Positions 5,167 through 52,177 of a stretch of 64,000 nucleotides of DNA are shown here, piece after piece; position 1 is the stretch's first letter, and each line of letters begins with the position of its first letter. A program made the translations under genes and the position numbers. The stretch covers positions 1,426,001 through 1,490,000 of the forward strand of contig NZ_OY776223.1 in assembly GCF_963675395.1 (NCBI RefSeq), written 5' to 3'. Source of the DNA: an uncultured Vibrio sp. GTDB taxonomy: Bacteria; Pseudomonadota; Gammaproteobacteria; Enterobacterales; Vibrionaceae. The notes under the pieces were generated by a model. The model did not search any database. It was not told where the DNA came from and saw only the letters and a program-made list of their open reading frames with translations.

Positions 5167-5297
5167 AACTTTTCTTAAACCATCATCTCTAACTTACTTG
5201 TGAACTGCTACCCCTTTTGATTATCCCAACTAATCCCTATATTACTAACAGTTAGGATATTTCTTTTTGGCAGACATGTTTCAAGAGGAGTTATTGG

Positions 5298-6665: not shown

Positions 6666-6762
6666 CAATATTCGTCCAAAGATGAATAGGTAGAAGCGCG
6701 TTGGATACACGACATTCGGTGACAGAGCTCTAATACTTTGATGAACTTTTCATCGGACAATT

Positions 6763-13865: not shown

Positions 13866-14324
13866 TTAGCGACGCGACGAGCAATTGAAGGCAAGTGGTG
13901 TTCTACTGATTCCACTTCTTAAACAAAACGTCAGCCATTCACCAAGGAACGTGTTTAGTTGATGCTTTTCATCTCGTTGCATCAATTTGTCGTTGGGATA
14001 ATCATATTTAGCTTTAATACGAGAGAAGTCTCCGCTTGAGCATACTTCCGCTACCCTCGCATCGTGGTAAAGCCTGACAGACATTGTCGGTAAAGGAAAC
14101 ACTGGTGTTTCATCACTCTGACATATCTCAACAACTGTGGTGTATTTTGTGACTTCATTCACGGTCAGTTGATAAACCATATGCGCAGCCTGATAGCAGC
14201 GCACGTCACCAACCTCGGCAGAGACAGGCAGCAAGGCATTTAATTTAGCGTAGTTGGTCTCATAGGTTCTCATTAGACCCGCTAAATCAACATGATATCG
14301 CTGTTTTTCAGCTATCTGTGCCAT
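13866..14324 (-). CDS. yqiB: YqiB, DUF1249 family protein
   Basis: 152-residue protein of unknown biochemical role, conserved between nudF and cpdA in gammaproteobacteria. Recognised by the MRTYETNYAKL N-terminal segment and LYHDARVAEVC. No membrane segment or signal peptide. Its ATG lies 3 bases after the nudF stop, so it is co-transcribed. Confidence 0.85.
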   Translation of the reverse strand: MAQIAEKQRYHVDLAGLMRTYETNYAKLNALLPVSAEVGDVRCYQAAHMVYQLTVNEVTKYTTVVEICQSDETPVFPLPTMSVRLYHDARVAEVCSSGDFSRIKAKYDYPNDKLMQRDEKHQLNTFLGEWLTFCLRSGISRTPLAFNCSSRR

Positions 14325-14327
14325 TAC

Positions 14328-14975
14328 TTACTCTCCACCGTTATTGGGGCTTGCCCATTGTGATTTCAACTCTAAATGGTTTAATTGCAACCACTGTACT
14401 GCGATAATTGAGGCAGCATTTTCAAGTTTTCCATCTTTCACCCATTGATATGCTTCTTCACGGCTGATGACGTGAACTCGAATATCTTCATCTTCATAGT
14501 CTAAACCATGAATGCCGTCTGCTTTAGAAGCATCGACTTCTCCGACAAAAATATCCAACTTTTCTGAGCACCCGCCCGAAGAGGGGTAGTATGAAGTCAC
14601 TGGTATAACACGACCTACATAAAGACCGGCTTCTTCGTGAGCTTCGCGGCGGATCACATCTTCAACGGACTCATCTCGATCAATCATGCCAGCAACAATT
14701 TCAAGCTGCCAAGGATGATCATGTTCTAATGCACCAACTCGTATTTGTTCGATGATAACAACCTGATCCTGTGTTGGATCATAAGGCAGCATCGCGGCAG
14801 CATGCCCGCGTTCGAACATTTCTCGCTCGACAACATCACTCCAGCCACCAGCAAAGAGCCGGTGTTTGAAACGGTACTTCACCATTTTGAAGAAGCCTTT
14901 AAACAAGGTCTCTTTCGAGATGATTTCCACATCTTGTGAAGTAAACTCGTCTTGTCGCTTGTCACACTGTTGCAT
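14328..14975 (-). CDS. nudF: ADP-ribose pyrophosphatase
   Basis: 215-residue Nudix hydrolase that splits ADP-ribose to AMP and ribose 5-phosphate. The Nudix box is present with the spacing G-x5-E-x7-REAHEEAGL near residues 100-120, and LEIVAGMID precedes it. RBS GAGGTG supports the ATG at 14975. First gene of a run nudF-yqiB-cpdA, divergent from tolC. Confidence 0.94.
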   Translation of the reverse strand: MQQCDKRQDEFTSQDVEIISKETLFKGFFKMVKYRFKHRLFAGGWSDVVEREMFERGHAAAMLPYDPTQDQVVIIEQIRVGALEHDHPWQLEIVAGMIDRDESVEDVIRREAHEEAGLYVGRVIPVTSYYPSSGGCSEKLDIFVGEVDASKADGIHGLDYEDEDIRVHVISREEAYQWVKDGKLENAASIIAVQWLQLNHLELKSQWASPNNGGE

Positions 14976-16660: not shown

Positions 16661-16789
16661 TGCTGAACAGCGACGAAAGAGCGTGATTCAGGATCTTCTA
16701 TACGAGAACTTTGCTATCAAAGGTATTTCTCTATCTTCTCAGCGCGCTGATTCTAGATTCCTAGTCTCGCTAAAGCTCGCAGGAATGAC
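16661..16789 (+). repeat. Interspersed ~130-bp palindromic repeat, copy A
   Basis: Shares with copy B (23429-23560) the left block GCGTGATTCAGGATCT and the right block AGATTCCTAGTCTCGCT, ending in GGAATGAC. The two ends are imperfect inverted repeats and the centre varies. It lies between the tolC terminator and the 3' end of hldE. It is noncoding and resembles a miniature element. Confidence 0.75.
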
Positions 16790-16823
16790 CCGATAATAAT
16801 AGTGAAAAACAGGCATTAACCCG

Positions 16824-23428: not shown

Positions 23429-23560
23429 GTCATCCTGGACTGCGACGAAGGAGCGTGATTCAGGATCTAGTTGCCGAGTACTTTATGCCCAAAGTTATTT
23501 CATAACGGCTCAGTGCGCTGCTATTAGATTCCTAGTCTCGCTAGGGCTCGCTGGAATGAC
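23429..23560 (+). repeat. Interspersed ~130-bp palindromic repeat, copy B
   Basis: 132 bp from GTCATCCTGG to CTGGAATGAC; the ends are imperfect inverted repeats. Shares GGAGCGTGATTCAGGATCT and TTAGATTCCTAGTCTCGCT with copies A and C. It sits just past the channel-gene terminator and 32 bp from the ygiF stop. Confidence 0.8.
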
Positions 23561-23592
23561 GCAGATAAAAATCGTTTCAACGTTTAATGTCA

Positions 23593-31960: not shown

Positions 31961-32094
31961 GTTCATTCCAGCGAGCCTTAGTGAGACTAGGAATCTAATA
32001 TCAGCGTACTGGGAAGTTTGAGAAATGGCCTAAGCCACAAGAAACTCGGAGAGAAGATTCTGAATCACGCTCCTTCGTCGCTATTCAGAATGAC
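31961..32094 (-). repeat. Interspersed ~130-bp palindromic repeat, copy C
   Basis: 134 bp in the reverse orientation to copies A and B: TCATTCCAGCGAGCCTTAG at the left and TCACGCTCCTTCGTCGCTAT before the closing GAATGAC at the right. It lies 40 bp past the cca stop. Confidence 0.78.
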
Positions 32095-39458: not shown

Positions 39459-39557
39459 CCCTGTTTAATTAGTCAGCATCAATTTAATTTGTTATAGTTA
39501 GTGGTTTGCATTTCGCATACTGATTCCTTCACCAGATTACGAAGTTGGATACCGTCT

Positions 39558-41429
39558 ATGGATCAAAATCCGCAGTCACAGCTAAAGTCACTTGTTATTA
39601 AAGGCAAGGAACAAGGCTATCTGACCTACGCCGAAGTAAATGACCACCTCCCTGCTGAAATCGTAGATTCAGAACAGGTAGAAGACATCATTCAGATGAT
39701 CAATGACATGGGCATTAAGGTAGTAGAAACTGCTCCTGATGCTGATGATTTAGCACTAAATGATGACACAAATATTACCGATGAAGATGCAGCTGAAGCT
39801 GCAGCCGCTGCACTTTCTAGCGTAGAAAGTGAAATTGGTCGTACTACAGATCCAGTACGTATGTACATGCGTGAAATGGGTACTGTTGAGCTACTGACCC
39901 GCGAAGGCGAAATCGACATCGCAAAACGCATTGAAGAAGGTATTAACCAAGTTCAATCATCGGTTGCTGAATACCCAGGAACGATTCCGTACATTCTTGA
40001 GCAATTTGATAAAGTTCAAGCAGAAGAGCTTCGCCTTACGGACCTAATTTCTGGCTTTGTCGACCCAGATGCAGACGATACCGCTGCACCGACAGCAACA
40101 CACATCGGTTCTGAGCTATCTGAATCTCAATTAGAAGATGAAGATAACACAGACGTTGATGATGATGAAGACGAAGACAAAGACGACGATTCAGATGATG
40201 ATTCTGAAGAAGATGTTGGTATCGACCCAGAACTGGCTCTGGAGAAGTTCAATCAGCTACGTAGTACATACCAAAATCTACAATTAGCGATTAACGAATA
40301 CGGCTACGAAAGCCCGAAAGCAACCGTCGCTAATGAAATGATGCTAGACGTATTCAAAGAATTCCGTCTAACACCAAAACAGTTCGATCACTTGGTGAAT
40401 GAGCTGCGTACTTCTATGGATCGCGTTCGTACGCAAGAGCGTTTGATCATGAAGTCAGTCGTTGAATACGGCAAAATGCCGAAGAAGTCTTTCATCGCTC
40501 TGTTCACTGGTAATGAATCAAGTGAAGCTTGGTTAGATGAAGTTCTGGCTTCTGACAAACCATACGCAGAGAAGATCAAACGTAACGAAGAAGAAATCCG
40601 TCGCTCAATCACTAAGCTAAAAATGATTGAAGAAGAAACTTCTTTGAGCGTACAAAATGTTAAAGACATCAGCCGTCGCATGTCTATCGGTGAAGCTAAA
40701 GCTCGCCGTGCGAAGAAAGAGATGGTTGAGGCGAACTTACGTCTGGTAATTTCTATCGCGAAGAAATACACCAACCGTGGTCTACAGTTCCTGGATCTCA
40801 TCCAAGAAGGTAACATCGGTTTGATGAAAGCGGTAGATAAGTTCGAATATCGTCGTGGTTACAAGTTCTCGACATACGCAACGTGGTGGATCCGTCAGGC
40901 AATCACTCGTTCAATCGCAGACCAAGCTCGTACGATTCGTATCCCGGTTCACATGATCGAAACGATCAACAAACTAAACCGTATCTCTCGTCAAATGCTA
41001 CAAGAGATGGGTCGTGAACCACTACCTGAAGAACTGGCAGAACGTATGCAGATGCCGGAAGACAAGATTCGTAAAGTGCTGAAAATCGCCAAAGAGCCAA
41101 TCTCAATGGAGACACCAATCGGTGACGACGAAGATTCGCATCTAGGAGATTTCATCGAAGATACGACGCTTGAACTACCACTAGACTCTGCAACAGCGAC
41201 AAGCTTGAAAGGCGCAACAAAAGACGTGCTTGCAGGTCTGACGCCGCGTGAAGCTAAAGTACTTCGCATGCGCTTTGGTATTGACATGAACACCGACCAC
41301 ACTCTAGAAGAGGTAGGTAAACAGTTCGACGTTACTCGTGAACGTATTCGTCAGATTGAAGCAAAAGCACTGCGTAAACTTCGTCACCCAAGCCGCTCAG
41401 AAACTCTGCGCAGCTTCCTAGACGAGTAA
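39558..41429 (+). CDS. rpoD: Primary RNA polymerase sigma factor (sigma-70)
   Basis: 623-residue housekeeping sigma. Region 1.1 starts [20 protein letters not shown]; region 1.2 has [16 protein letters not shown]; the nonconserved region contains a run of acidic residues (about 205-225). Region 2 shows [20 protein letters not shown] and [15 protein letters not shown]; region 4 shows [17 protein letters not shown]. An upstream frame extension to 39501 is rejected. Last gene of the rpsU cluster; accessory DNA begins right after its terminator. Confidence 0.97.
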
Positions 41430-41460
41430 GCCAGGCGCTCATAAGCGTTAAAAAATCCTA

Positions 41461-41490
41461 AAAAGGTGACCCTAGGTCACCTTTTTTATT
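41461..41490 (+). terminator. Terminator after rpoD
   Basis: AAAAGGTGACC / GGTCACCTTTT stem with a 3-nt loop and T run. Confidence 0.93.
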
Positions 41491-41584
41491 ATCCACTGTT
41501 CTAAGTGGATAAAAACTAAGCGCAATTAGCCATACTGGTATCTAGACACCTCGCAGCGCTTCCCCTATAATCGTTGACCTATCA

Positions 41585-41660
41585 GGCCCCTTAGCTCAGT
41601 GGTTAGAGCAGTCGACTCATAATCGATTGGTCCGCAGTTCAAGTCTGCGAGGGGCCACCA
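41585..41660 (+). tRNA. ileX: tRNA-Ile2 (anticodon CAU, read as lysidine-AU)
   Basis: 76-nt cloverleaf including encoded CCA. Acceptor GGCCCCT / AGGGGCC, D-arm GCTC/GAGC, anticodon stem GTCGA / TCGAT with loop CTCATAA (anticodon CAT), T-arm CGCAG TTCAAGT CTGCG. The body matches the E. coli ileX-type tRNA-Ile2 rather than elongator or initiator Met, although automatic annotation often calls it Met. Identity as Ile depends on TilS making lysidine. Its 3' 45 nt are the attachment core of the islands that follow. Confidence 0.93.
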
Positions 41661-41668
41661 TATTATAG

Positions 41669-41702
41669 AAGGCTCGTAGAGAAATCTACGGGCCTTTGTC
41701 TT
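41669..41702 (+). terminator. tRNA-Ile2 terminator
   Basis: AGGCTCGTAGA / TCTACGGGCCT stem (one G-U) with a GAAA tetraloop and T-rich tail, 9 nt after the tRNA. Copied at 47644-47677 and 50907-50942 together with the tRNA end. Confidence 0.88.
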
Positions 41703-41708
41703 TTCTGG

Positions 41709-41727
41709 TCCGGTCTATATCCGGTCC
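41709..41727 (+). repeat. S site 1
   Basis: TCCGGTCT-ATA-TCCGGTCC: direct 8-bp repeat at an 11-bp period, 48 bp past the tRNA. Candidate arm-type integrase or accessory-protein site. Confidence 0.7.
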
Positions 41728-42076
41728 CTTTTATCTAAACAATGACTACTTCCGGTAAGCTCTGGTCCATTCGGTCAGCCGAAACACGCCACGTAGTCAC
41801 CACAGAGTCACACTTCCTCTATCAGACCGATATCCACCATCAGAACCTTCTCTCGTCTGTACAACGCGAACCTCAGCCGATACATACCATTCAATACCAG
41901 AACCGAACCCCAGAAAAACTCCGCGCTGGAACAAACAAAAATATAACCAACATTCCGTTCCATTAGGTCCAGTTATTAATATAAATATAATTTAGATACC
42001 TAAATGGGGTTCTAGCTGAGATTACGCAGGAGACTCAGCACCGAAGATTAGGACAAGATGAATGTTGAATCATGAT

Positions 42077-42104
42077 GACCGATTACCCTCAGTGGTAATC
42101 GGTC
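42077..42104 (+). terminator. Conserved terminator-like hairpin in the left arm of island A
   Basis: GACCGATTACC / GGTAATCGGTC perfect 11-bp stem with loop CTCAGT and a TGTCTTTCTCTT tail. The island B copy keeps the stem with loop CTAAGT. No gene precedes it, so it may end an unannotated transcript. Confidence 0.6.
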
Positions 42105-42332
42105 TGTCTTTCTCTTAAGTGATTTAGGTCAGTAATCAGCGACACTCAACCACGGCACCAGAAACAGCAGCTAATCACGGGGCTGGTATTCATACTGGAA
42201 CCGGAAAAACCAACGGCACACTGGATTACAGCGCGGATCCTATAGCAATAGGACAGCAAAATCCCACGGCTAGAACCTCGGGGGAAACTCTGACCAGAAT
42301 CGGTGCTGAACTACCTACCAGACATACCTGAC

Positions 42333-42400
42333 AGGGTTGGAGGGGTTGATAGGGTTGAGTTCAATCTGATGGGGTTGTCGGGGTTTACAGGGTTGTTGAA
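42333..42400 (+). repeat. GGGTT iterons
   Basis: Six GGGTT(G/T) units in about 65 bp: AGGGTTGG, GGGGTTGAT, AGGGTTGAG, GGGGTTGTC, GGGGTTTAC, AGGGTTGTT. Two more follow at 42548-42560 (GGGTTGATGGGGTTAG). Function unknown; G-rich on the plus strand. Confidence 0.6.
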
Positions 42401-42468
42401 GTTAGCTCTGAGGGCACAAATGTATTCGGCGAGGGATACTACCCTATTAACCCTAGATTCCAACTCAA

Positions 42469-42487
42469 AGACCGGATAGAGACCGGA
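42469..42487 (-). repeat. S site 2
   Basis: On the minus strand TCCGGTCT-CTA-TCCGGTCT. Lies about 80 bp before R hairpin 1. Confidence 0.7.
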
Positions 42488-42567
42488 ACCACTGCACGAT
42501 CATGGTAATAGTCTTCGGTGTAATTCAGCAGAGTACCGGGGTCGCATGGGTTGATGGGGTTAGCGAG

Positions 42568-42605
42568 GGTCAGTCTGGTGTGACCGACCCAGCGATCTAG
42601 GATTT
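42568..42605 (-). repeat. R hairpin repeat 1, after the lipoprotein gene
   Basis: Part of a 41-bp motif found four times. On the minus strand CCTAGATCGCTGGGTC leads into the stem GGTCGGTC / GACTGACC with a 6-nt loop. It starts about 20 nt past the lipoprotein stop. There is no T run, so it is not a normal terminator. Confidence 0.75.
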
Positions 42606-42626
42606 GTGGTTGTGGGGGTGTGAGGT

Positions 42627-43319
42627 CTACATATTTACTGAAAAATCTGATCTGAAATGGTTCAGTACTTTGAATTTTATGGATGTATTGTCGTAGCCAA
42701 GAACTTCAATACGTGCGCCTTTGTAGTTGATAACATTTGACTTAGACATGTCGTACTCCACGTTGTTGGTAAAAGCATTTCGAGCGGAGCCATCAGAAAA
42801 CTCTCGATATGAAATATTTATCTTTTTACCCACAGAGCCATTGTAAATCAAAGTTTGTTGGAAAGACTGATTATCAGTAACAGTTCTGTCTTCAACCCTC
42901 AACTGTCCCGTGTAGCACGATGCAGATTGGTAAGAAACTGAAGTTACGCATACTTCATTAGCTTTTTTTGTATGTAGTGCGATTGGTGGATCGATCAGTC
43001 CGGCAGCATATCTAATGCTCTGGCCTTGAGTATTTGTCGCAGAAAAATAAGGAATGCCTTTGTAGTCTCCAATCCGAGCGTAAGAGCCCGGTGGAATATC
43101 ATAAGCTACGCCATCTACAAGATGAGCTAGTATGAGATATTCCATGGTTGTCGACTTGCCTTGATCTAGCATGTAATCGCCAACATAAGCTTCAACAACT
43201 TGGCCAATGGGTGGTTCAGAAAAGAAGTCTGTTTTAGCACTAGTGTTATAATTAATTGTCGAACAACCCGCCATAACAGAGACAGATAAAGTCAAAACGC
43301 CAATAGTAGATAATTTCAT
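42627..43319 (-). CDS. Putative lipoprotein of unknown function (island A)
   Basis: 230 residues. A lipoprotein signal peptide with lipobox VMAGC puts the acylated Cys at residue 19. The mature part is largely polar, with two further cysteines in EVCVTSVSYQSASCY near residue 125-135 that could form a disulfide. No known domain is recognised. It reads toward the tRNA, with R hairpin 1 at its 3' end. Surface or periplasmic location is inferred from the signal. Confidence 0.75.
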   Translation of the reverse strand: MKLSTIGVLTLSVSVMAGCSTINYNTSAKTDFFSEPPIGQVVEAYVGDYMLDQGKSTTMEYLILAHLVDGVAYDIPPGSYARIGDYKGIPYFSATNTQGQSIRYAAGLIDPPIALHTKKANEVCVTSVSYQSASCYTGQLRVEDRTVTDNQSFQQTLIYNGSVGKKINISYREFSDGSARNAFTNNVEYDMSKSNVINYKGARIEVLGYDNTSIKFKVLNHFRSDFSVNM

Positions 43320-43407
43320 TTTTCATCCCTAAACATAAATGATACCGATTTCAACATAAAATTAGACACATATTAACATCATGATATCTATAATCATGGA
43401 GTTTAAT

Positions 43408-43770
43408 ATGATCAAAGTTACAACTTTAGAAACCCTCTCAACCCTACCAATCACCACAACCCTACAAGAACAAGTCAACGCGTTACTCACCGAACCATTT
43501 CACGATGAAGCAGAAACCCAACAGGTATGGGATGAACTGCAATGTGAGCTCTGGTTTCTCACATCAAAATCCGAACTCTCTGCCGTCGTCGTCGACGATA
43601 TCGAAATGCTAAAACGAGCACTGACCTACACCGAATTCGAAGACGATATGGACTACGGAGCAGTGCTTACCCTGAGCATTGTCGAGGACTCTGGCAAGGG
43701 TATCTACCTACTGATGCCTAAGACACTGCTCACCGAATTACGCCAATACTTCTCCATCGAGAATGACTAA
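43408..43770 (+). CDS. Small acidic protein encoded just before the integrase
   Basis: 120 residues, no recognised domain, no signal peptide or membrane helix; acidic overall. The ATG at 43408 has GGAG at the right distance and gives MIKVTTLETL; an earlier ATG at 43381 lacks one. Its stop lies at the integrase ribosome binding site (TAAGGAGG), so the two are translated together. By position it could be a recombination directionality factor or integrase partner, but no helix-turn-helix is evident. Confidence 0.7.
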   Translation: MIKVTTLETLSTLPITTTLQEQVNALLTEPFHDEAETQQVWDELQCELWFLTSKSELSAVVVDDIEMLKRALTYTEFEDDMDYGAVLTLSIVEDSGKGIYLLMPKTLLTELRQYFSIEND

Positions 43771-43780
43771 GGAGGCAGTG

Positions 43781-44971
43781 ATGCAATCCCGAAAATTCAA
43801 ATTCAATAAGCGCCAACTCGACTCACTACCACCGACGCCGCTGTCGAGCAAAAGTAAGGAAACTGAATATACCGACGAGTTGTGTAGCGGGCTCAAGCTG
43901 ATAATTAACCGTCAGGGGAGGAAGCGTTTCCTCTTTAGGTACACCTATTTTTCGGTCAAAAAATCGATACAACTAGGTGAATATCCAGCGCTAGATATTG
44001 CCACTGCTCGCCAGATTGCCAATGACCATAAACGGGAAATTGCTCTAGGTAATGATCCCAAGGTTATTCGAGACGAAAAACGGAATGTACTATCGTTTCA
44101 GGAATTTGCGGAGCTGCACTACTTACCGTATGCAATGATGAACAAGCTCACTGCCAAAAGTGATGCAGGTAGTCTCAAGCTTCACTTCTATCCGAAGTGG
44201 GGCAAGAAACCTCTCACTGATATCGGTCAGCAGGACATTCAGAAATTGTTGGATGGCTTACTAGAAGGAAGAAAGCCTGCAACGGTGAACCGTCTACGCT
44301 CCTTAGTCCTTCGTATGTTCAGGCTCGCAATGGAATGGGGATTCGTGGACAAGAATCCCGGTCAGTACATCAGGAAGCTTAAGGAGAATAACGTCCGTCA
44401 ACGTTTCCTCTCACGGGCTGAGGTTTCAGCCTTCATCAAGGCATGTAACGAGGAACCGAATCGCACCCAATCTAACGCATTGAAATTTGCGCTACTTACA
44501 GGGATGCGAATCGGGGAAATTACCAGTTCGAAATGGGAGTGTCTTACCGTCGACGACGACGGCAATTGGAGCCTATTTCTACCACACACTAAGTCGGGAT
44601 TATCTAGAACAGTCCTGCTCAATCATCTAGCTAAGGAAGTGATCCATGATCAACGACGATTTCAACAACCTAAGAACCCCTATATCTTTGCCGGAGATGC
44701 CCCCGGTAGACCTATCGCTCATCCGAAGAAGGCTTTTGCTCGGATCAAGAAAGCTGCTGGTATTACAGACAACTTCCGAATTCATGATTTGAGGCACAGC
44801 TTCGCATCGATCCTCATAAACAGCGGAAATGCCACGCTCTATGATGTTCAGCATTTGCTGGGGCACCAGTCGCCACAAACCAGTACGAGGTATGCTCATT
44901 TGGCTTCGAGTAGGCTGAGAGAGGTTAGTGCTAATGTGGCTGAGTTGGTTGGAGATGTGAGTAAAGGCTGA
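43781..44971 (+). CDS. int: Tyrosine recombinase / island integrase
   Basis: 396-residue integrase of the tRNA-targeting P4-like type. The N-terminal DUF4102-like arm-binding region has GLKLIINRQGRKRFLFRY and QLGEYPALDIATARQ; the catalytic domain keeps Arg243 (TGMRIGE), His335-x-x-Arg338 (HDLRHSF), His near 361 (LGHQSPQTS) and the nucleophile Tyr371 (TRYAHL). All catalytic residues are intact, so the protein should be active. The ATG at 43781 has GGAGG five bases upstream; the frame runs back to 43763. A 19-bp motif inside its coding region (44547-44565) recurs at 48265-48283. Confidence 0.93.
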   Translation: MQSRKFKFNKRQLDSLPPTPLSSKSKETEYTDELCSGLKLIINRQGRKRFLFRYTYFSVKKSIQLGEYPALDIATARQIANDHKREIALGNDPKVIRDEKRNVLSFQEFAELHYLPYAMMNKLTAKSDAGSLKLHFYPKWGKKPLTDIGQQDIQKLLDGLLEGRKPATVNRLRSLVLRMFRLAMEWGFVDKNPGQYIRKLKENNVRQRFLSRAEVSAFIKACNEEPNRTQSNALKFALLTGMRIGEITSSKWECLTVDDDGNWSLFLPHTKSGLSRTVLLNHLAKEVIHDQRRFQQPKNPYIFAGDAPGRPIAHPKKAFARIKKAAGITDNFRIHDLRHSFASILINSGNATLYDVQHLLGHQSPQTSTRYAHLASSRLREVSANVAELVGDVSKG

Positions 44972-45179
44972 ACCGCGAGAGTTACTATTTTGTCTACCAA
45001 GCAACTATCCACACCATGTAGAGACTTAGTGAGAACGAAAAGAGCAATTTGTTGCTTATCTCTTATGTTACGGACTACACTTATTTTAGGGTCCAGTGTT
45101 TACTGCTTGGCTACTTATGGCTCATATTGTGTTTAATTCTTGACCTAAGAGTTGTTTTTTGAGATTGTACCTCAAAATA
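44972..45179. other. Spacer between integrase and the peptide gene
   Basis: About 200 noncoding bases before a terminator. Nothing recognisable; low GC compared with the integrase. Confidence 0.5.
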
Positions 45180-45206
45180 AACCCCCTTCAATGGGGGTTT
45201 TGCGTC
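45180..45206 (+). terminator. Terminator upstream of the peptide gene
   Basis: AACCCCC / GGGGGTT stem with a 6-nt loop and TTTTGCG tail; isolates the peptide gene from the integrase. Confidence 0.85.
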
Positions 45207-45292
45207 TATAAAATAAATGTTTTTATCTATATGTAGTGTTAGCACTGGAAGTTAAACTCAACATATTGTGTTCAGAGCAAAGAGGATAAGTT

Positions 45293-45493
45293 ATGGAAAA
45301 GATCAATTTTAAAGAGTTACACACTCAAGTTATTGGTTATGGCCCGCAAAAGCCTCAAGTGACTACTTCAAATTGTGACGCACATCTAATCCATGCTTTT
45401 TTCAATAATGCGCCTGCAAGTAGCTCGGTCTCTAACAATACAACACTAAAACAAAACTCGATGCTGAGTAACTCAACAGTTATGAGCTGCTAA
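45293..45493 (+). CDS. 66-residue peptide gene of unknown function
   Basis: Short gene with its own ribosome binding site (GAGGATAAGTT then ATG) and bracketed by two terminators (45180-45206 and 45524-45546), so it is a separate transcription unit. The N-terminal half is charged (MEKINFKELHTQVIGYGPQK); the C-terminal half is rich in Ser, Asn and Thr and ends in Cys, with one more Cys near residue 28. This leader/core-like split resembles precursor peptides, but no modifying enzyme of a known class is nearby. The SDH-type protease follows at once. Confidence 0.6.
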   Translation: MEKINFKELHTQVIGYGPQKPQVTTSNCDAHLIHAFFNNAPASSSVSNNTTLKQNSMLSNSTVMSC

Positions 45494-45523
45494 CTTGATA
45501 TATTCAAATTAGCCCATATTATA

Positions 45524-45546
45524 AACCCTGCCATGCAGGGTTTTTT
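45524..45546 (+). terminator. Terminator after the peptide gene
   Basis: ACCCTGC / GCAGGGT stem with loop CAT and a TTTTTT tail. The ATG inside its loop (45533) opens the frame of the next gene and is an unlikely start. Confidence 0.9.
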
Positions 45547-45565
45547 CATATCTGGAGGATATAGT

Positions 45566-46480
45566 TTGCCGAGCTTAAATGACGTAATTTCAGAAATTCA
45601 ACTAGGGATAGCCAACCAAGTACCGAACGCTCCTGACGCTGTTCGGTTACAAAAGATAGTAGACTTACAAGCTTTAACTACAAGAAATGTCATCTGCTAT
45701 TACTCGGGGTGGTTGAATGTCAATGGAGCATCTGTGCCAAACTTATCTATTGATGATATGGATAAAAATGGCTTTATGAATGCAGTTCAAGGCATGGACT
45801 GTTCTTTGGGACTAGATCTAATTTTACACACACCTGGTGGTTCTGTGACTGCTGCTGAATCTCTGGTTTACTACCTAAAGAAAAAGTTTGGTAACGACAT
45901 CCGAGTAATAATCCCACAAATGGCAATGTCTGCTGGGACAATGATTGCATGTTGTTCCAAAGAAATCGTGATGGGTAATCAGTCTTGTATTGGTCCTTTT
46001 GACCCGTCAGTAAGAAACGTTTCAGCTTTCGCTGTTTTTGATGAATTCATGAGAGCATCGGAAGATATAAAGGGCAATCCACATAACATTCCACTTTGGC
46101 AGACAATGGTAAGCAAGTATCCACCAGCATTTCTAGAGGAATGTGAGCGAGCAATCGAATTAGCAAATACCATTGTTCCCCAGTGGCTTAAAGATAACAT
46201 GCTATCTACCTTAGATACTGAAGAACAAAATTCCAGAATCGAAAAGCTCATTGGAGCGTTGAACAATCCTCATAAGACTAAAGAGCACTCGCGCCATATT
46301 CATCTAGAAGAGGCCGTTGAGCTTGGATTAACCATCGCTCAATTGGAAGATGACCAAGACCTTCAAGAGAAAGTGTTGACTCTTCACCACGCATACCTTG
46401 CTACATTAATGATGACAAATACATCTAAATTAATTGAGTCACACCACGGCAAGAAATTCATTCTCAGCTATCAAGTTTAG
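45566..46480 (+). CDS. SDH-family Clp-fold serine protease
   Basis: 304 residues. The fold is that of the ClpP/SppA/crotonase group: LDLILHTPGGSVTAAES near residue 85-100 and the nucleophile region IPQMAMSAGTMIACCS near residue 125, with GPFDPSVR after it. This matches the SDH protease family (Pfam PF01972). The likely start is TTG at 45566, which has GGAGG 7 bases upstream; the ATG at 45533 lies inside a terminator loop. No signal peptide, so it should act in the cytoplasm or at the membrane surface. Target unknown; the adjacent peptide is one candidate. Confidence 0.82.
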   Translation: MPSLNDVISEIQLGIANQVPNAPDAVRLQKIVDLQALTTRNVICYYSGWLNVNGASVPNLSIDDMDKNGFMNAVQGMDCSLGLDLILHTPGGSVTAAESLVYYLKKKFGNDIRVIIPQMAMSAGTMIACCSKEIVMGNQSCIGPFDPSVRNVSAFAVFDEFMRASEDIKGNPHNIPLWQTMVSKYPPAFLEECERAIELANTIVPQWLKDNMLSTLDTEEQNSRIEKLIGALNNPHKTKEHSRHIHLEEAVELGLTIAQLEDDQDLQEKVLTLHHAYLATLMMTNTSKLIESHHGKKFILSYQV

Positions 46481-46528
46481 AGAACAATTTCAGTTCAAAC
46501 TACTCATCATTAGCCATCTCGCCACAAT

Positions 46529-46569
46529 CTAAAATCCTAGATCGCTGGGTCGGTCACAACCGACTGGCC
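46529..46569 (+). repeat. R hairpin repeat 2, after the protease gene
   Basis: Inverted relative to copies 3 and 4 on the map, but like copies 1 and 4 it sits 3' of a cargo gene in the same sense. Stem GGTCGGTC / GACTGGCC; the change in the second arm keeps pairing through a G-U. Confidence 0.75.
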
Positions 46570-46649
46570 CTGTAATCTCGCTCTAAGGCTTATCCTGCCT
46601 AGAATCCTGCATGATGTAGTTCCAGTAACTTTGGCGACGGCGTCGTCTG

Positions 46650-46668
46650 TCCGGTCTCTATCCGGTCT
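46650..46668 (+). repeat. S site 3
   Basis: TCCGGTCT-CTA-TCCGGTCT; 81 bp from R hairpin 2. Confidence 0.7.
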
Positions 46669-46789
46669 TTAGCTGTGATTTTGGCTAGATACCGAGCTGG
46701 ACACGAACCCTAATGTAAATTTCCTATTTAGGTTTTCCGTCCAGTTTGCCGACGGTGCCGTCATTACGTCGACGACGTCGAGAAACCCA

Positions 46790-47254
46790 TCATGACTTCT
46801 GTACGAGCGCTAACAGCTCTGCTTTTAGCTGTTGGTATTCGTGGCCTAGTACGTGAAGGTAAATTGATGATTCGGACTTTTGGGCTAGACCTAAGTCTCT
46901 AACTATTGAGGCGCAAAACCCTAGGTTGTTAGCTGAACCTGAAGGATATAGGGATTTATAGACCTGACTTTTCCACGGACTATCACCTTGAGATTCGATC
47001 AACTGAAATAGTTCGTTAAGTGGAACCCAGTGTTTTGAATGCAATCCTGCCCCGCCACTTTGTCCGGCAATTCGAAAGTAGAGTTGGTTATCTTCGCTGT
47101 TTTGAGCAATCTCGTAGATCACCGTTCCTTGGGACTTTGCTCCTAGTTTTGGTGCTTCACCTGTTTTGAGAATGGTAGAGAATGGATTGTCTACTGATGT
47201 GGTTTTAGATGTATCAGCCTCTGCATTCTTCCTGCTGTTTTTGGGTTGGTTCAT
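46790..47254 (-). CDS. 154-residue protein of unknown function (island A)
   Basis: Well-placed ribosome binding site AAGGAG before the ATG at 47254. The first ~40 residues are polar and probably disordered; the rest looks globular (YFRIAGQSGGAGLHSKHWVP, then a helical C-terminus). No signal peptide, membrane helix or recognised domain. It is the last gene of island A and lies within the interval flanked by the inverted repeat arms. Function cannot be assigned. Confidence 0.7.
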   Translation of the reverse strand: MNQPKNSRKNAEADTSKTTSVDNPFSTILKTGEAPKLGAKSQGTVIYEIAQNSEDNQLYFRIAGQSGGAGLHSKHWVPLNELFQLIESQGDSPWKSQVYKSLYPSGSANNLGFCASIVRDLGLAQKSESSIYLHVLGHEYQQLKAELLALVQKS

Positions 47255-47590
47255 AGAAACTCCTTTATCTCATTAAGCTAGAAATAAGAAAGCCCCTACC
47301 GGACGAATCCAGTAATGGCTCTTACAATTCAATAATATAAATTCGTTTTGCTGCTTGTTACGCCTAGGAATTTTTTCCTGTCTTTTCCGGTACTGTTCCT
47401 GTCTTTCCACCCAACCTTAACCCCATTTCCTCGTCGGCGTCGTCGTACTAATCACGGCCAATAATTCCCGTCGTCGACGTCAGTAAAATCATGCGGGTAA
47501 TCAGGTGATGTGATTTTGCTGGTGGATTTAGGCGTGATTCGGGGCAGGGTTTCTATGTTGATTGTGCAGTGAGATTGTGTCAGACCTTCG
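47255..47590. other. Right end of island A, noncoding
   Basis: 336 bases before the second attachment core. GTC/GAC-rich palindromic clusters at 47431-47446 and 47469-47482 (CGTCGTCGACGTCA). No gene seen. Confidence 0.5.
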
Positions 47591-47927
47591 CTCATAATCG
47601 ATTGGTCCGCAGTTCAAGTCTGCGAGGGGCCACCATATTATAGAAGGCTCGTAGAGAAATCTACGGGCCTTTGTCTTTTCTGGTCCGGTCTATATCCGGT
47701 CCCTTTTCTCTAAACAATGACTACTTCCGGTAAGCTCTGGTCCATTCGGTCAGCCGAAACACGCCACGTAGTCACCACAGAGTCACACTTCCTCTATCAG
47801 ACCGATATCCACCATCAGAACCTTCTCTCGTCTGTACAACGCGAACCTCAGCCGATACATACCATTCAATACCAGAACCGAACCCCAGAAAAACTCCGCG
47901 CTGGAACCAACAAAAATATAACCAACA
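47591..47927 (+). repeat. Island left-end direct repeat, copy 2 (junction of islands A and B)
   Basis: Starts with the last 45 nt of tRNA-Ile2 including CCA, followed by the tRNA terminator and 290 bp as in copy 1. The 5' part of the tRNA is absent, so this is not a functional tRNA gene. Confidence 0.92.
47684..47702 (+). repeat. S site 4
   Basis: Identical to S site 1, at the same distance from the tRNA fragment. Confidence 0.7.
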
Positions 47928-48264
47928 TCCTGTCCATTAGCTGAAGTTATTAATATAGATATGGGATGGATAGCTAGTTCAGTGACGGGAAGGACACCCA
48001 TGATCCTAAAGCTCTCAGAACTAGCAAATCAGGAAAAACAGCATTCAATGATGACCGATTACCCTAAGTGGTAATCGGTCTGTCTTTCTCTAATGTAACT
48101 TGGACTAGTAATCAGCGACACTCAACCACGGCACCAGAAACAGCGGTTAATCACAGGACTGGTATTCATACTCAGAACGGAAAAACCAACGGCACACCGG
48201 ATTACAGCGCGAATCTGGTATGAGTTAGGGTGTCGAGTTGAGTTAGTCGAATCAGATGGAACAG
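47928..48264. other. Noncoding left arm of island B
   Basis: No gene. Contains the conserved hairpin 48053-48080 and the arm 48045-48222 shared with island A, then the inverted-repeat arm from 48275. Confidence 0.7.
48053..48080 (+). terminator. Conserved terminator-like hairpin in the left arm of island B
   Basis: Same 11-bp stem as at 42077-42104, loop CTAAGT, tail TGTCTTTCTC. Confidence 0.6.
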
Positions 48265-48283
48265 CCGTCGACGACGACGGCAA
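48265..48283. repeat. 19-bp motif shared with the integrase gene
   Basis: CCGTCGACGACGACGGCAA, identical to 44547-44565 inside the integrase coding region; its core is palindromic (CCGTCG...CGACGG). Confidence 0.6.
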
Positions 48284-48360
48284 ACTGGACGGAAAACCTA
48301 AATAGGAAATTTACATTAGGGTTCGTGTCCAGCTCGGTATCTACCTAAAATCACAGCTAA

Positions 48361-48379
48361 AGACCGGATGGAAACCGGA
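48361..48379 (-). repeat. S site 5
   Basis: Minus strand TCCGGTTT-CCA-TCCGGTCT; one base off in one half. 80 bp from R hairpin 3. Confidence 0.6.
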
Positions 48380-48459
48380 CCGACGACGCCGCCGGCAAAA
48401 TTACAGAAACTACATCATGCAGGAAGTTAAGCAGGATAAGCCTTAGAGCAAGATTACAG

Positions 48460-48500
48460 GGTCAGTCTGGTGTGACCGACCCAGCGATCTAGGATTTTAG
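48460..48500 (-). repeat. R hairpin repeat 3, upstream of gltS
   Basis: Same orientation as copy 4 (49963-50003), so the two form direct repeats flanking gltS. Unlike copies 1, 2 and 4 it does not follow a cargo gene. Confidence 0.75.
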
Positions 48501-48686
48501 ATTGATCAATGAAGAGCCATTCCATTCATCAGCACACGAGCCTAACGGCTATTTCCCTACTGAGAGTAAACTTCTAAACACAACCCGCCACAGTTCAAAT
48601 TCAGCAGAATGCAATTGGATGCCATGTAAACAAGTTACTATGATTAATAAATAAGTGCCTGCACATCACCCATGACAGGAGTAAGT

Positions 48687-49913
48687 ATGGATTTCATCGA
48701 TGGCGTGTTACAAGTCGAGTCTTTCTTGGCGGTTACTTTGGGGATCATCGTATTATTCCTCGGTAAACGTCTGACCCAGGCCAGTAAATTATTGAGAGAG
48801 TTTAGTATTCCTGAACCCGTTTCTGGCGGGATACTGGTGTCCGTGCTTTTTACTGTTCTCCACTATGTTACCCAAATCGATGTACAGTTTAACCTCGCAA
48901 CTCGTGATCTTTTACTGGTGTACTTCTTTACCACTATTGGTATCAACTCAAGCCTGCAAGATTTATTCAAAGGAGGGAAGCCCCTGCTCATTCTCCTCTC
49001 AGTTACCATCGGCTACATGCTGATACAAAACCTGACGGGAATTGGCATTGCATCTATGCTTGGACAACCAGAAGCCGTGGGATTGCTTAGTGGTACCGTC
49101 TCTTTAATTGGTGGTCACGGAACCGCAATTGCTTGGTCGCCAAGAATTGCAGAGCTTTTCGATCTTAACACTGCGATGGAAATTGGTATTGCCAGTGCAA
49201 CATTCGGCTTGATCCTAGCGAGTTTAATGGGTGGGCCGATTGCAAAGTACCTAATCAATAAACACAATCTTAAGCCAACTGAAGTCGAAGAGATGGACGT
49301 CGGTACTGCCCACGATGAACCGCAACCAGCCATCAACGCTTATGATTTCTTAGATGCGATGTTGGCTATTCACGTTTGTATCATTCTTGGTGCAGTGCTA
49401 AACGAGGGAGTCAGTAGCCTCGGCCTAGAACTGCCCCTATTTGTGACCTGTCTCTTTGCAGGTATTCTTATTTCAAACCTGATTCCCACGTCTTATCCTC
49501 GTTTAACTGGTACGCGCTGGCCTGCAAGGAAACCTGCTGTCGCACTGATTGCTGATATGGCATTAGGCGCATTTCTAGCCATGTCTTTGATGAGTATGCA
49601 GTTATGGGCGTTAGTCGATTTAGCGGGGCCAATCTTTATCATCCTTGGGGCGCAATTTTTGGTGGCTGTATGTATTGCGGTCTTTGTTGTGTTTCCACTC
49701 ATGGGCAAAAATTATGATGCCGCGGTGGTATGTTCTGGTTTCGGGGGGATCTCATTGGGCTCTACCCCAACCGCGATGGCGAACATGTCTGCCGTTGCAA
49801 AAAAATACGGTAACTCACATCAAGCATTTATCATTGTGCCGTTAGTGTGCGCTTTCTTCATCGACTTAGCGAATGCGTTGCTCATTCCCTATTTCATTAA
49901 CTGGATAAGTTAA
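48687..49913 (+). CDS. gltS: Sodium/glutamate symporter GltS
   Basis: 408-residue membrane carrier importing glutamate with sodium. Ten or more hydrophobic segments; the two re-entrant signatures SGTVSLIGGHGTAIAW near residue 130 and GFGGISLGSTPTAMANM near 355 match the GltS family. ATG at 48687 has CAGGAG upstream; an ATG five codons earlier lacks spacing. It sits in island B between direct copies of the R hairpin, which suggests it arrived as a unit. Confidence 0.93.
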   Translation: MDFIDGVLQVESFLAVTLGIIVLFLGKRLTQASKLLREFSIPEPVSGGILVSVLFTVLHYVTQIDVQFNLATRDLLLVYFFTTIGINSSLQDLFKGGKPLLILLSVTIGYMLIQNLTGIGIASMLGQPEAVGLLSGTVSLIGGHGTAIAWSPRIAELFDLNTAMEIGIASATFGLILASLMGGPIAKYLINKHNLKPTEVEEMDVGTAHDEPQPAINAYDFLDAMLAIHVCIILGAVLNEGVSSLGLELPLFVTCLFAGILISNLIPTSYPRLTGTRWPARKPAVALIADMALGAFLAMSLMSMQLWALVDLAGPIFIILGAQFLVAVCIAVFVVFPLMGKNYDAAVVCSGFGGISLGSTPTAMANMSAVAKKYGNSHQAFIIVPLVCAFFIDLANALLIPYFINWIS

Positions 49914-49962
49914 CTCTATCCGAAATGTTCAGTGCTTATAAGTCAACATTTGTTGTAGCAAA

Positions 49963-50003
49963 GGCCAGTCTGGTGTGACCGACCCAGCGATCTAGGATTT
50001 TAG
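49963..50003 (-). repeat. R hairpin repeat 4, after the outer-membrane protein gene
   Basis: Starts 9 nt past the stop of the barrel-protein gene (minus strand). Nearly identical to copy 3 over 41 bp, with one change in the stem that keeps a G-U pair. Confidence 0.75.
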
Positions 50004-50012
50004 TGAGTTGGG

Positions 50013-50567
50013 TTAGAAGTAGTAACGAGCACCAGCATAAAAGCCACGGATCGCAACTTCTACGTCATCAATTTCAGTATTTGCGCTTCGATAGCCAACA
50101 TTTAAGCTAATGCTTTCATTAATGTTATATCCACTCTCTACACCAAATTGATAGCCTGTCTCAGACTCTTCAACGTCGCTTGTCTTATCTTTCAGAGTCA
50201 TTTGACCTAGGCCAAATACACCCGCAATGTAAGCACCATTATCAAAAGTGTATTTTGGCTTAAGGTTAGCAAAAATCGCATGCCCATCTGCTTTCATCAT
50301 TCCTAAAAAATCGACCTCACCAAAAGTTCGGTATTCTACTTCGCCTGCAAGTTTAAATGACTCTTCGATCTTTGACTCATATCCAACAGCGGCATTAAAA
50401 CCAACGTCATTTGATTCCTCGATTGATACACCACTATTTTCTAGTTCCGTTTCATTCGCAAATGCCACATCAGCTCCTAAATAAAAGCCTGTTTTTGTTC
50501 CAGCCACTGCTGCACTACTGACGAAAAAAGACAACACTGCTAAAGAAAGTACATTTTTAGTTTTCAT
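50013..50567 (-). CDS. Outer-membrane beta-barrel protein (porin-like family)
   Basis: 184 residues. Signal peptide (about residues 1-22, cleaved after AVA) and then alternating amphipathic strands typical of an eight-stranded barrel, with the outer-membrane signature of a C-terminal aromatic (GARYYF). Aligns in style with OMP_b-brl small barrels. The extracellular loops are acidic. Cargo of island B; R hairpin 4 follows its stop. Role unknown. Confidence 0.82.
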   Translation of the reverse strand: MKTKNVLSLAVLSFFVSSAAVAGTKTGFYLGADVAFANETELENSGVSIEESNDVGFNAAVGYESKIEESFKLAGEVEYRTFGEVDFLGMMKADGHAIFANLKPKYTFDNGAYIAGVFGLGQMTLKDKTSDVEESETGYQFGVESGYNINESISLNVGYRSANTEIDDVEVAIRGFYAGARYYF

Positions 50568-50885
50568 TTTTATCTCTAAAATTTGCTAATTTTTTATAGC
50601 CACATCTAACCATGGCATTTTAATCAATAATTACAATAAATTATCGTGCGTCATAATATTCAAAACAGTACTTACAAGCCATGATTCAAATCACATCGAC
50701 TGGATCATATGCAAAAAGCCTCTTAATAAAATGCCTTCATCAAGAGGTATCGAGAGCGATCTCAGAAATCTCCTCACTGAAGAAGAAGCATTTGAAGAGA
50801 TATTTGCCTGAGGAAAAGATATTTGTCAGAGCAAGTAAACAATGTGTTCGAGATACGCGAGCTTCTTTGATGTGAGGTAAGCATC
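50568..50885. other. Noncoding right part of island B
   Basis: Contains the promoter side of the barrel gene and a short frame (50681-50875) without a ribosome binding site. Another frame reads PSSRGIESDLRNLLTEEEA to a stop at 50809 and could be the tail of a decayed gene, but nothing upstream supports it. Confidence 0.45.
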
Positions 50886-50966
50886 CAGTTCAAGTCTGCG
50901 AGGTGAGAAGGCTCGTAGAGAAATCTACGGGCCTTTCTCTTTTCTGGCTCGGTCTATATCCTGTCG
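50886..50966 (+). repeat. Degenerate third attachment copy (right boundary)
   Basis: CAGTTCAAGTCTGCGAGG (tRNA T-arm and start of the acceptor) joined, after loss of 14 bp, to the tRNA terminator and an S site with substitutions (50948-50966). Marks the outer edge of the array; the native sequence downstream of the tRNA resumes here. Confidence 0.8.
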
Positions 50967-51043
50967 TAAACATTACCAGGTAAGTACCTCACGCGTATTA
51001 CAAACACATGGGTAGTAATTGAGATACAGGCTGAAGTTACACA

Positions 51044-52177
51044 CTATTCATTCAGCAGGTTCAAAGCGGCATTAGGAATCAACCTAGCTTGAGCTAACAT
51101 AGATGATGAAGATTGTTGAAGAATTTTAGCTCGAGTCATTTCGGTTGTTTCTTTTGCGTAATCTGTATCCGTACGGTTTCCTTTCGATGCACTGATATTT
51201 TCATACATATTAGTTAAATTAGAGAGCATGCGATCAAATCGATTCTGAAGAGCCCCGACATCAGCTTGATGCCCATCCACATAATTCAAGGCAGAATCAA
51301 TGATAGAGACGGCTTCTTGAGCGCCTCCTATGCTTGTCACATCAATGTTCTCTACAATTGCCTTACGGCCGTTATCGAAGTTAAACTCTCTGGCCAGGCT
51401 CCCAGAAAAACAAACTTTCCCTTCTGCAACATCAGACCCAACAAACATTTGTAGTTCACCAGTACCGGATACCGACGCAGTAACAAACTCTTGCTGTCCA
51501 TTGATGTAAGTTGCAAGTTCTTCAATATCATCTCCAATTTTGGCTTCGATATTGATACTTACATCGTTTCCGGCTCTATCGGTAAAATCCATACCGAGCT
51601 CGTTAGCATCATCTTCGACAGTCCAACTTTCGTCTTTGGCTTCCTCTGCAATAAATATCGTTCCCCCCATCGATGAAGAGCTTGAACGCATATCCTTTAG
51701 TTCCAGTAGTATCGTTTCACTATTGGAACCAACTTGAAGCGCTTTCTTGCCATAGCTACCATCTAACAATCTCATCCCAGCAAAATTAGCAGAGCTAGCG
51801 ATACTATGCAGTTCTTCCTTTAAAGCTTGGACGTTTTTTTGAATTGCCTGCCTGTCAGCTATTGAGTTTGACCCATTAGCCGCTTGCAAGGAATGATCTC
51901 TCATATCCTTTAGAATACTAGATATTTCGCGCATAGATCCTTCAGCAGTCTGGACTATGGCCACTCCATCATTGACATTCTTAGCTGCAACATCGATTCC
52001 TCGACTTTGTACATGTAATCGATTCGCAATTTGTAATCCAGCAGCATCATCTTTAGCACTGTTTATCTTTTTTCCCGAAGAAAGTTTAAGTATTGATGAA
52101 TTATAATCATCAGAAGCATCAGCAATATGACGTCGTGTTGCTAACGCAGCGGTATTGTTGTGTAGGCTCAATGTCAC
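51044..52177 (-). CDS. Orphan flagellin
   Basis: 377-residue flagellin. N-terminal D0/D1 (about 1-140) contains TRRHIADASDDYNSSILKLS, SAKDDAAGLQIANRL and VQTAEGSMREISSILKDMRD; the C-terminal D1/D0 ends ILQQSSSSMLAQARLIPNAA. The variable middle differs from usual polar flagellins and includes a Cys (GKVCFSGSL), rare in these proteins. The start is GTG at 52177 with GGAGG upstream. No other flagellar gene is in the window, yet a sigma-28 promoter precedes it. Could be a minor filament subunit. Confidence 0.9.
   Translation of the reverse strand: MTLSLHNNTAALATRRHIADASDDYNSSILKLSSGKKINSAKDDAAGLQIANRLHVQSRGIDVAAKNVNDGVAIVQTAEGSMREISSILKDMRDHSLQAANGSNSIADRQAIQKNVQALKEELHSIASSANFAGMRLLDGSYGKKALQVGSNSETILLELKDMRSSSSSMGGTIFIAEEAKDESWTVEDDANELGMDFTDRAGNDVSINIEAKIGDDIEELATYINGQQEFVTASVSGTGELQMFVGSDVAEGKVCFSGSLAREFNFDNGRKAIVENIDVTSIGGAQEAVSIIDSALNYVDGHQADVGALQNRFDRMLSNLTNMYENISASKGNRTDTDYAKETTEMTRAKILQQSSSSMLAQARLIPNAALNLLNE

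Follow-up and report, generated by a model that had tools for sequence, protein, structure and literature searches.

The tRNA-targeted integrative island is a known kind of mobile element, and in Vibrio cholerae one such island, VSP-2, is located at a tRNA gene beside rpoD. The locus analysed here is a tandem array of two elements (elements 1 and 2) at a tRNA gene of an uncultured Vibrio sp., within a stretch of 64,000 nt of contig NZ_OY776223.1 (hereafter the window, whose first nucleotide is position 1). The gene ahead of this tRNA gene (39501-41429) reads as encoding the sigma factor RpoD. The tRNA gene is the sole intact one called by ARAGORN, which labelled it Met from its CAT anticodon; judging by the E. 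coli sequence, it is presumably tRNA-Ile2. The elements belong to the known kind, and their architecture, with two inverted attachment sites, is a new variant of it. The array is probably a decayed tandem of Vibrionaceae integrative elements with two inverted attP sites, in which the integrase would flip one cargo segment (cargo1), modules would be exchanged and the element would replicate itself, possibly with amplification.

The yeast 2-micron plasmid has two inverted recombination sites in identical long repeats and two unique regions, one of which holds the recombinase. The elements described here likewise pair inverted sites in long repeats and have two regions with the recombinase in one. 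However, they are bacterial, integrate at a tRNA gene, encode their own polymerase and ATPase and have a second R arm that is shorter than the first, and amplification is suggested only by analogy. Two inverted sites in near-identical long repeats were found in relatives only, the window having a 230-bp relic.

Other relevant elements are the Vibrio ones resembling phage defence elements (PDEs), VSP-2 among them, as presented in the available part of PMC11481870. They share with the present elements a single tyrosine integrase, a site at the 3' end of a tRNA gene, direct end cores and defence cargo, but the elements here differ in their inner inverted attachment site, their long homogenised arms and the position of the integrase between inverted arms. 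The word 'inverted' is not found in the available part of PMC11481870, nor 'invert' in that of PMC12595487. PICMI satellites, according to the part of PMC10803314 available, are small Vibrionaceae elements combining integrase, replication and defence functions; that part contains neither 'inverted' nor 'tRNA'. Whereas PICMI is characterized by a fis site and AlpA, the elements here insert into a tRNA gene, and no AlpA family was present among 29 proteins scanned with Pfam. Strand-biased circularizing integrative elements (SE) resemble them in their Vibrio hosts, tyrosine recombinase and inverted end repeats. However, SE have repeats of 13-19 bp and two recombinases (PMC10214605, available part), while element 1 has one integrase and the arms are about 1 kb in relatives. 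The architecture reported below is absent from the available parts of these four papers, and the literature searched, which excluded subscription papers, describes no tRNA island whose attachment arms are long and inverted.

Layout of the elements

In intact relatives (genomes are designated G and loci L), the layout is tRNA-core-L-[cargo1 with integrase]-L'-core'-R'-[cargo2]-R-core-chromosome, L being the left arm, R the outer attachment arm and primes marking the inverted copies. When pieces of the window were mapped on the relatives' loci, the left end of the element lay at both ends of the integrase segment, in inverted orientation. Self-comparison retrieved inverted pairs of 1007 bp at 98.6% identity in G250, 968 bp at 98.6% in G074, 988 bp at 98.2% in G096, 682 bp at 100% in G113, 924 bp at 93% in G209 (a metagenome-assembled genome, MAG), 861 bp at 90% in G117, 654 bp at 95% in G233 (V. 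splendidus) and 887 bp at 73% in Photobacterium (P.) proteolyticum. A second module beyond core' and a direct core closing it had been predicted; both were then found, together with a mirror-image R arm, in G250, G113, G074 and G096. At the G250 locus (L134), the tRNA gene (792-867) and L (823-1827) are followed by cargo1, L' (5754-6695), core' (6716-6760), R' (from 6761), cargo2, orfR, R (14008-14342) and the closing core (14343-14387). The same layout is repeated in G113, G074 and, twice in tandem, G096. About 150-194 nt of the R arm at the inner site (attP2) recur in the distal R arm, the longer of the two (about 336 nt), which orfR adjoins. At the junctions, the R sequence before core' equals that before the distal core within an element, whereas that of the next G096 element differs.

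In four drafts (L028, L030, L033 and L035) the contigs end within arms, which is what exact repeats would cause. Telomere-like terminal repeats of a linear element were considered and rejected: an R arm borders both core' and the distal core, and core' borders an L arm as well, so the repeats are not terminal. In Salinivibrio L031 the inner arm is doubled as a direct repeat (5183-5397 and 5540-5751, 215 bp at 98%). Ahead of cores of the family in L141, L139, L057 and L030 lies foreign sequence ending in GACTCATAATCG, which suggests that other island families occupy the same tRNA gene in tandem.

The window matches a tRNA island in its tyrosine integrase gene (PF00589, 2.4e-27) and in the direct repeats of the tRNA 3' end at 41616 and 47591, with a remnant at 50886. 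Its key feature is the inverted copy of the inner part of the arm within element 1 (46525-46754). A preliminary description of the array had reported that 41616-41952 recurs at 47591-47927 with two mismatches. Our repeat search of the window found 41616-41915 and 47591-47890 identical over 300 nt, and on the sequence itself the match continues as far as 41952/47927, giving 337 bp with two mismatches, far beyond chance. Similarity is weaker past this point, with 89% identity between 42072-42239 and 48048-48215 and 88% over 632 bp overall. The worn copy placed at the end of the array was also recovered (50906-50965, 93% over 60 nt, with a partial tRNA core immediately ahead), and the window maps support the picture of tandem islands at one tRNA gene that differ in cargo and repeat a noncoding end. 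Tandem arrays also occur in G096 (two elements) and G233 (one plus one decayed).

Two further claims of that description stand in part. The left end is indeed shared, but the tract is the outer part of a noncoding arm of about 0.9-1 kb which, in intact relatives, bounds the integrase-bearing segment on both sides in inverted orientation, and it thus belongs to an attachment or recombination arm. As for recent tandem integration or homogenisation, the two whole L arms of the window are 74% identical and the 337-bp stretch 99%, which argues for local homogenisation and against one recent tandem duplication. Because the high identity is confined to the outer third of the arms, local conversion near the tRNA gene is the simplest reading.

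A motif of 40-47 bp, 'rep', was found by the repeat search at cargo borders in the window. Its 28-mer occurs four times in G000, always within the array, with no occurrence of the reversed control; 'rep' was rejected as a genome-wide cassette site, since 12 of 18 genomes searched contained the 28-mer, and only at these loci. Rfam at the gathering threshold retrieved tRNA alone across 41400-51100, and so no known RNA in the arms.

Conventional Vibrio islands (L153-L170) have the gene order int-xis?-orfR-p142-WYL(-p88), 'xis?' being a provisional name for a small acidic protein. A related integrase (27-29%) adjoins orfR (41-56%), p142 and WYL in eight of the nine loci, while the ninth, in G228, has only orfR and a distant integrase. 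The xis? gene is present in six of the nine, p88 in five, and a polymerase of the G101/G113 type with its partner in two. Across the nine stretches the longest inverted repeat is 113 bp at 75%, and no tRNA was called next to the integrase. Integrase and orfR are thus side by side in conventional islands, whereas in the elements here they are apart, with the integrase between inverted arms. Given this arrangement and the lack of a long inverted repeat in the conventional islands, the element family seems to have separated int-xis? from orfR and enclosed it in a pair of inverted arms. G187 contains two copies of the conventional island.

Similarity of the arms

L arms were compared in nine elements with two long L arms, within an alignment of 28 arms. 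The nearest arm was the element's own partner in eight of the nine, G117 being the exception. Within-element identity was 98.4% in G250, 100% in G113, 98.7% in G074, and 98.6% and 100% in the two G096 elements (G096a and G096b); these five thus span 98.4-100%. The remaining values were 93.1% (G233), 94.4% (G209), 90.4% (G117) and 70.3% (P. proteolyticum). In the arm tree, partners are sisters in six of the nine pairs (G250, G113, G074, G096a, G096b and P. proteolyticum). Between the tandem elements of G096, the arms are 87.8-88.1% identical, with about 95% over the outer 600 nt followed by a variable block. R arms were compared in eight elements and are 100% identical over 149-194 nt in G250, G113, G074, G096a, G096b and G193.

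These data bear on whether the elements are ordinary tRNA islands whose inverted arm is a passive relic of an ancient inverted duplication that homologous gene conversion has kept uniform, the integrase having no role in inversion. Gene conversion by itself can hold inverted repeats identical, and the partners in G233, G209 and G117 that are not sisters would fit such an origin. So would G250, where the L arms have two differing sites in positions 46-989 and the core T-stems eight paired changes, suggesting that arms and cores have partly separate histories. However, a passive duplication would be expected to decay quickly, while the second site of intact elements keeps its L arm, R arm and core. 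Inverted L arms are moreover found in several genera; in P. proteolyticum they are only about 70% alike and both are retained, so that two arms seem to be needed. We consider a passive origin unlikely.

The inverted core of G250 (L134 6716-6760) has an alternative T-stem, ATGTG/CACAT, with compensatory changes, between near-identical arms. Seven of 227 Vibrio genomes carry this allele, as does one of 295 genomes from the order, itself a Vibrio. It therefore points to no other genus, and its interpretation as a trace of a former host genus was rejected.

Cargo, orientation and mechanism

In the two-site mechanism that we favour, the integrase segment of the circular intact element would lie between two attP sites (R-core-L) in inverted orientation. 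Integration at the 3' half of the CAT-anticodon tRNA gene would proceed via attP1, the site with the complete R arm, beside orfR, and the second, inverted attP would stay inside the integrated element. The single integrase could then recombine attL (or attP1) with the inverted attP2, flipping cargo1, and cargo1 may be swapped by module-for-module exchange between co-resident or incoming elements. Once excised, the element would be copied by the polymerase and ATPase that it encodes and, by comparison with the yeast 2-micron circle, could be amplified if inversion took place while it replicates.

Cargo1 is exchangeable. The integrase (whole or in pieces) and its partner, the small acidic protein, are kept in all 15 elements compared, and none of the 51 other cargo1 open reading frames (ORFs) has a match in another element's cargo1. 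ORFs of at least 70 aa were compared, a match being defined by E 1e-5 and 40% of the length, and three ORFs were left out owing to region borders or size (538 aa in G096a, 233 aa in G233 and 66 aa in the window). In G113, cargo1 contains a retron-type reverse transcriptase with PtuA and PtuB (a retron I-A/PtuAB set). Other defence-like proteins are SIR2 (G074), caspase-like (G112), DpdB-like (G209) and AriA/OLD-like (G117). PADLOC, applied to a chosen part of the cargo, matched 5 of 10 and 4 of 10 proteins in two sets (E up to 1e-5). In a third set (E up to 0.01), matches were strong for PtuA, the AriA/OLD-like protein and RTasPolA (two cargo2 polymerases) and weak or absent for the rest.

Cargo2 encodes a polymerase related to family A in all nine elements (tblastn), with PF00476 above the cut-off in both polymerases tested by Pfam. 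Seven of the nine also encode a P-loop ATPase related to a weakly SF3-like protein of G074, a label given by Pfam matches below the curated cut-off. Another large protein, common to G113 and G101, replaces the ATPase in these two. The WYL regulator and p88 are recurrent in cargo2. Homologues of orfR (E 1e-10 or better) were detected in 29 of 227 Vibrio genomes. Its AlphaFold model has a predicted local distance difference test score (pLDDT) of 85.7, whereas of five models of the small acidic protein one was confident (pLDDT 88) and the others scored 46-54. Assignment of either protein to known excisionases was rejected, as neither had a PDB match at E 0.001, with just that one of the five small-protein models confident. 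In G209 (L057 5537-5995), orfR is broken by two stops and adjoins the inverted core rather than the distal one, the sole such case among the mapped loci.

The polymerase and ATPase, together with the defence cargo and marine Vibrio hosts like those of PICMI, might point to a phage satellite, with the arms as packaging or replication signals and the inverted copy serving helper-phage packaging of concatemers. The scanned proteins included no transfer functions, both orfR and the small protein have PHROG matches, and a piece of R arm lies on a V. alginolyticus plasmid that bears a terminase gene. However, a search of 50,697 phage records with the arm of element 2 gave no match, for which reason a phage origin of the arms was rejected, and neither orfR nor the small protein has a tblastn match in phage records. 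Pfam scans of part of the cargo gave no capsid or terminase family. The query 41585-44600 did match 523 phage records, but the 20 listed cover the tRNA end only (3-4% of the query). Eight loci were retrieved from viral contigs, with a best identity of 42% over a short stretch, and none belongs to the element family. A satellite is thus a quite improbable interpretation.

The integrase has the same direction as the tRNA gene in four elements (the window, G233, G209 and G112) and the opposite direction in 14: G250, G113, G074, G096a, G096b, G117, G101, Salinivibrio L031, V. xiamenensis L030, P. proteolyticum L032 and the integrase remnants of G105, G187, G106 and G199. In G209, G112, G105, G106, L030 and L032, it was the junction or arm, and not an adjacent intact tRNA gene, that indicated on which side the tRNA lies. 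The count omits loci in which the tRNA side was not resolved (L029, L033, L034, L035, L037 and the second V. xiamenensis contig), as well as G137 and G206, which consist of an inner arm and an integrase relic only and would both read opposite. The variation is between species, one genome per species having been compared. It is very unlikely to reflect a phase switch, in which inversion of cargo1 toggles defence genes from flanking promoters and the second site is kept for switching rather than mobility: both orientations do occur and cargo1 holds the retron I-A/PtuAB set and SIR2, caspase-like and DpdB-like proteins, but in several elements the cargo1 genes around the integrase lie in both directions, and the two arms have the same sequence, so that a promoter in an arm would be met unchanged after a flip.

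Several observations weigh against the two-site mechanism itself. A ratio of 14 to 4 departs from the half-and-half of a free switch, and the variation in orientation could be explained by rare homologous recombination between the arms. The presence, in several elements, of cargo1 genes on both sides of the integrase is at odds with the simplest module swap. In the nine mapped cargo2 modules orfR is distal, and no flip of cargo2 was found except possibly in the decayed G209. The arm tree does not pair the partner L arms of G233, G209 and G117 as sisters, the R arms of G233 are not alike, and those of G169 are 98.7% alike and equally close to those of G193. Finally, the window holds just the 230-bp relic of the inverted arm.

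If the two-site mechanism is correct, one tyrosine integrase integrates the element, flips its cargo and exchanges cassettes. The element would then provide a bacterial cargo-swapping slot outside integrons, possibly with recombination-coupled amplification, a process known from yeast plasmids. This would account for the complete turnover of cargo (0 of 51 ORFs common) while integrase and arms remain constant. A conceivable though doubtful extension, drawn by analogy, is a replicon that integrates at a tRNA gene and has a pair of inverted attP sites, in which the integrase flips one replication fork relative to the other, the element is amplified by its own polymerase and ATPase, and the inverted sites act as cassette-exchange sites for defence cargo.

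Features of the window and distribution

Features of the array in the window, with strand and evidence
Feature	Position	Strand	Evidence or remark
tRNA gene, intact, anticodon CAT	41585..41660	+	ARAGORN; the 3' 45 nt (41616-41660) are the attachment core
Element 1 left arm L	41616..42612	+	Repeat search; 28-arm alignment
Cargo1, 230-aa protein, function unknown	42627..43319	-	PHROG 1353
Small acidic protein beside integrase ('xis?')	43411..43770	+	phrog_32947, 3.7e-6; in 15/15 elements
Tyrosine integrase, 402 aa, frame intact	43763..44971	+	PF00589, 2.4e-27; PF13356 arm-binding domain
Cargo1, 66-aa ORF, no family	45293..45493	+	ORF list, Pfam
Cargo1, ClpP-like SDH-type serine protease	45533..46480	+	PF01972, 1.6e-18; phrog_11747
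Remnant of inverted arm L', inner part only	46525..46754	-	92% inverted match to 48275-48504
orfR, 154 aa, beside distal R arm; last remnant of cargo2 module	46793..47254	-	phrog_28971, 1.5e-17
R arm (outer attachment arm), ends at core	47255..47590	+	Maps of relatives, junction comparison
Element 2 left arm L, tRNA half 47591-47635	47591..48504	+	Repeat search, 28-arm alignment
Element 2 cargo, sodium/glutamate symporter gltS	48672..49913	+	PF03616, 8.6e-115
Extra direct copy of inner end 'rep'	49961..50007	+	Repeat search
Element 2 cargo, outer-membrane beta-barrel protein	50013..50567	-	PF13505, 1.2e-14
Worn tRNA 3' end and terminator, chromosomal end of array	50886..50966	+	Repeat search, junction comparison

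Element 1 is without the outer L', core', R' and polymerase module. A similar decay was found in the second element of G233, which nevertheless kept an R arm and an integrase relic. As its integrase, one L arm, the R arm and direct cores are retained, element 1 might still excise. Its L arm consists of the core, La (41661-41952), Lb (41953-42240), Lc (42241-42565) and the 'rep' inner end (42566-42612), and is the most diverged Vibrio arm in the 28-arm alignment, with 76.6% identity to the nearest. The 230-aa cargo1 protein was compared with 14 other cargo1 slots and has no relative in them, and PADLOC matched neither the serine protease nor any other of the three window cargo1 proteins tested.

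Of 61 relatives, four match the 291-nt tract that follows the core, the match being full-length only in its own genome. Integrase matches at E 1e-60 or better were detected in 16 of 227 Vibrio genomes, and at E 1e-120 or better in 10 of 247 genomes of the family, from 3 of 13 genera. A scan of named genomes retrieved 18 integrase loci, 14 close and four distant, the close ones being encoded in Vibrio, a Vibrionaceae MAG, Salinivibrio, Photobacterium and a Ferrimonas.

Three plasmid records match small pieces (2-3% of the query), one of them the protease gene only. The terminase-bearing V. alginolyticus plasmid NZ_CP054704.1 has 159 nt of R arm at 94% (L182 9033-9190), continuing through CTCATA, the first six nucleotides of the core, into unrelated gene sequence. 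Recombination at the start of the core could thus take place outside a tRNA gene, and this single end is perhaps a secondary integration site that reveals the crossover point. On V. alginolyticus plasmid NZ_CP119336.1, the inner end of an arm lies beside an integrase relic of 21 residues. No complete element was present in the 18 kb read of these two plasmids. The G074 polymerase retrieved only distant plasmid matches (about 25%), in five records.

Directly past the array is a flagellin-like gene (51044-52177, minus strand). Elsewhere in the window, three repeats of about 130-140 bp, some 78-80% alike, lie at 16663-16803, 23435-23575 and 31963-32094, two of them direct and one inverted.

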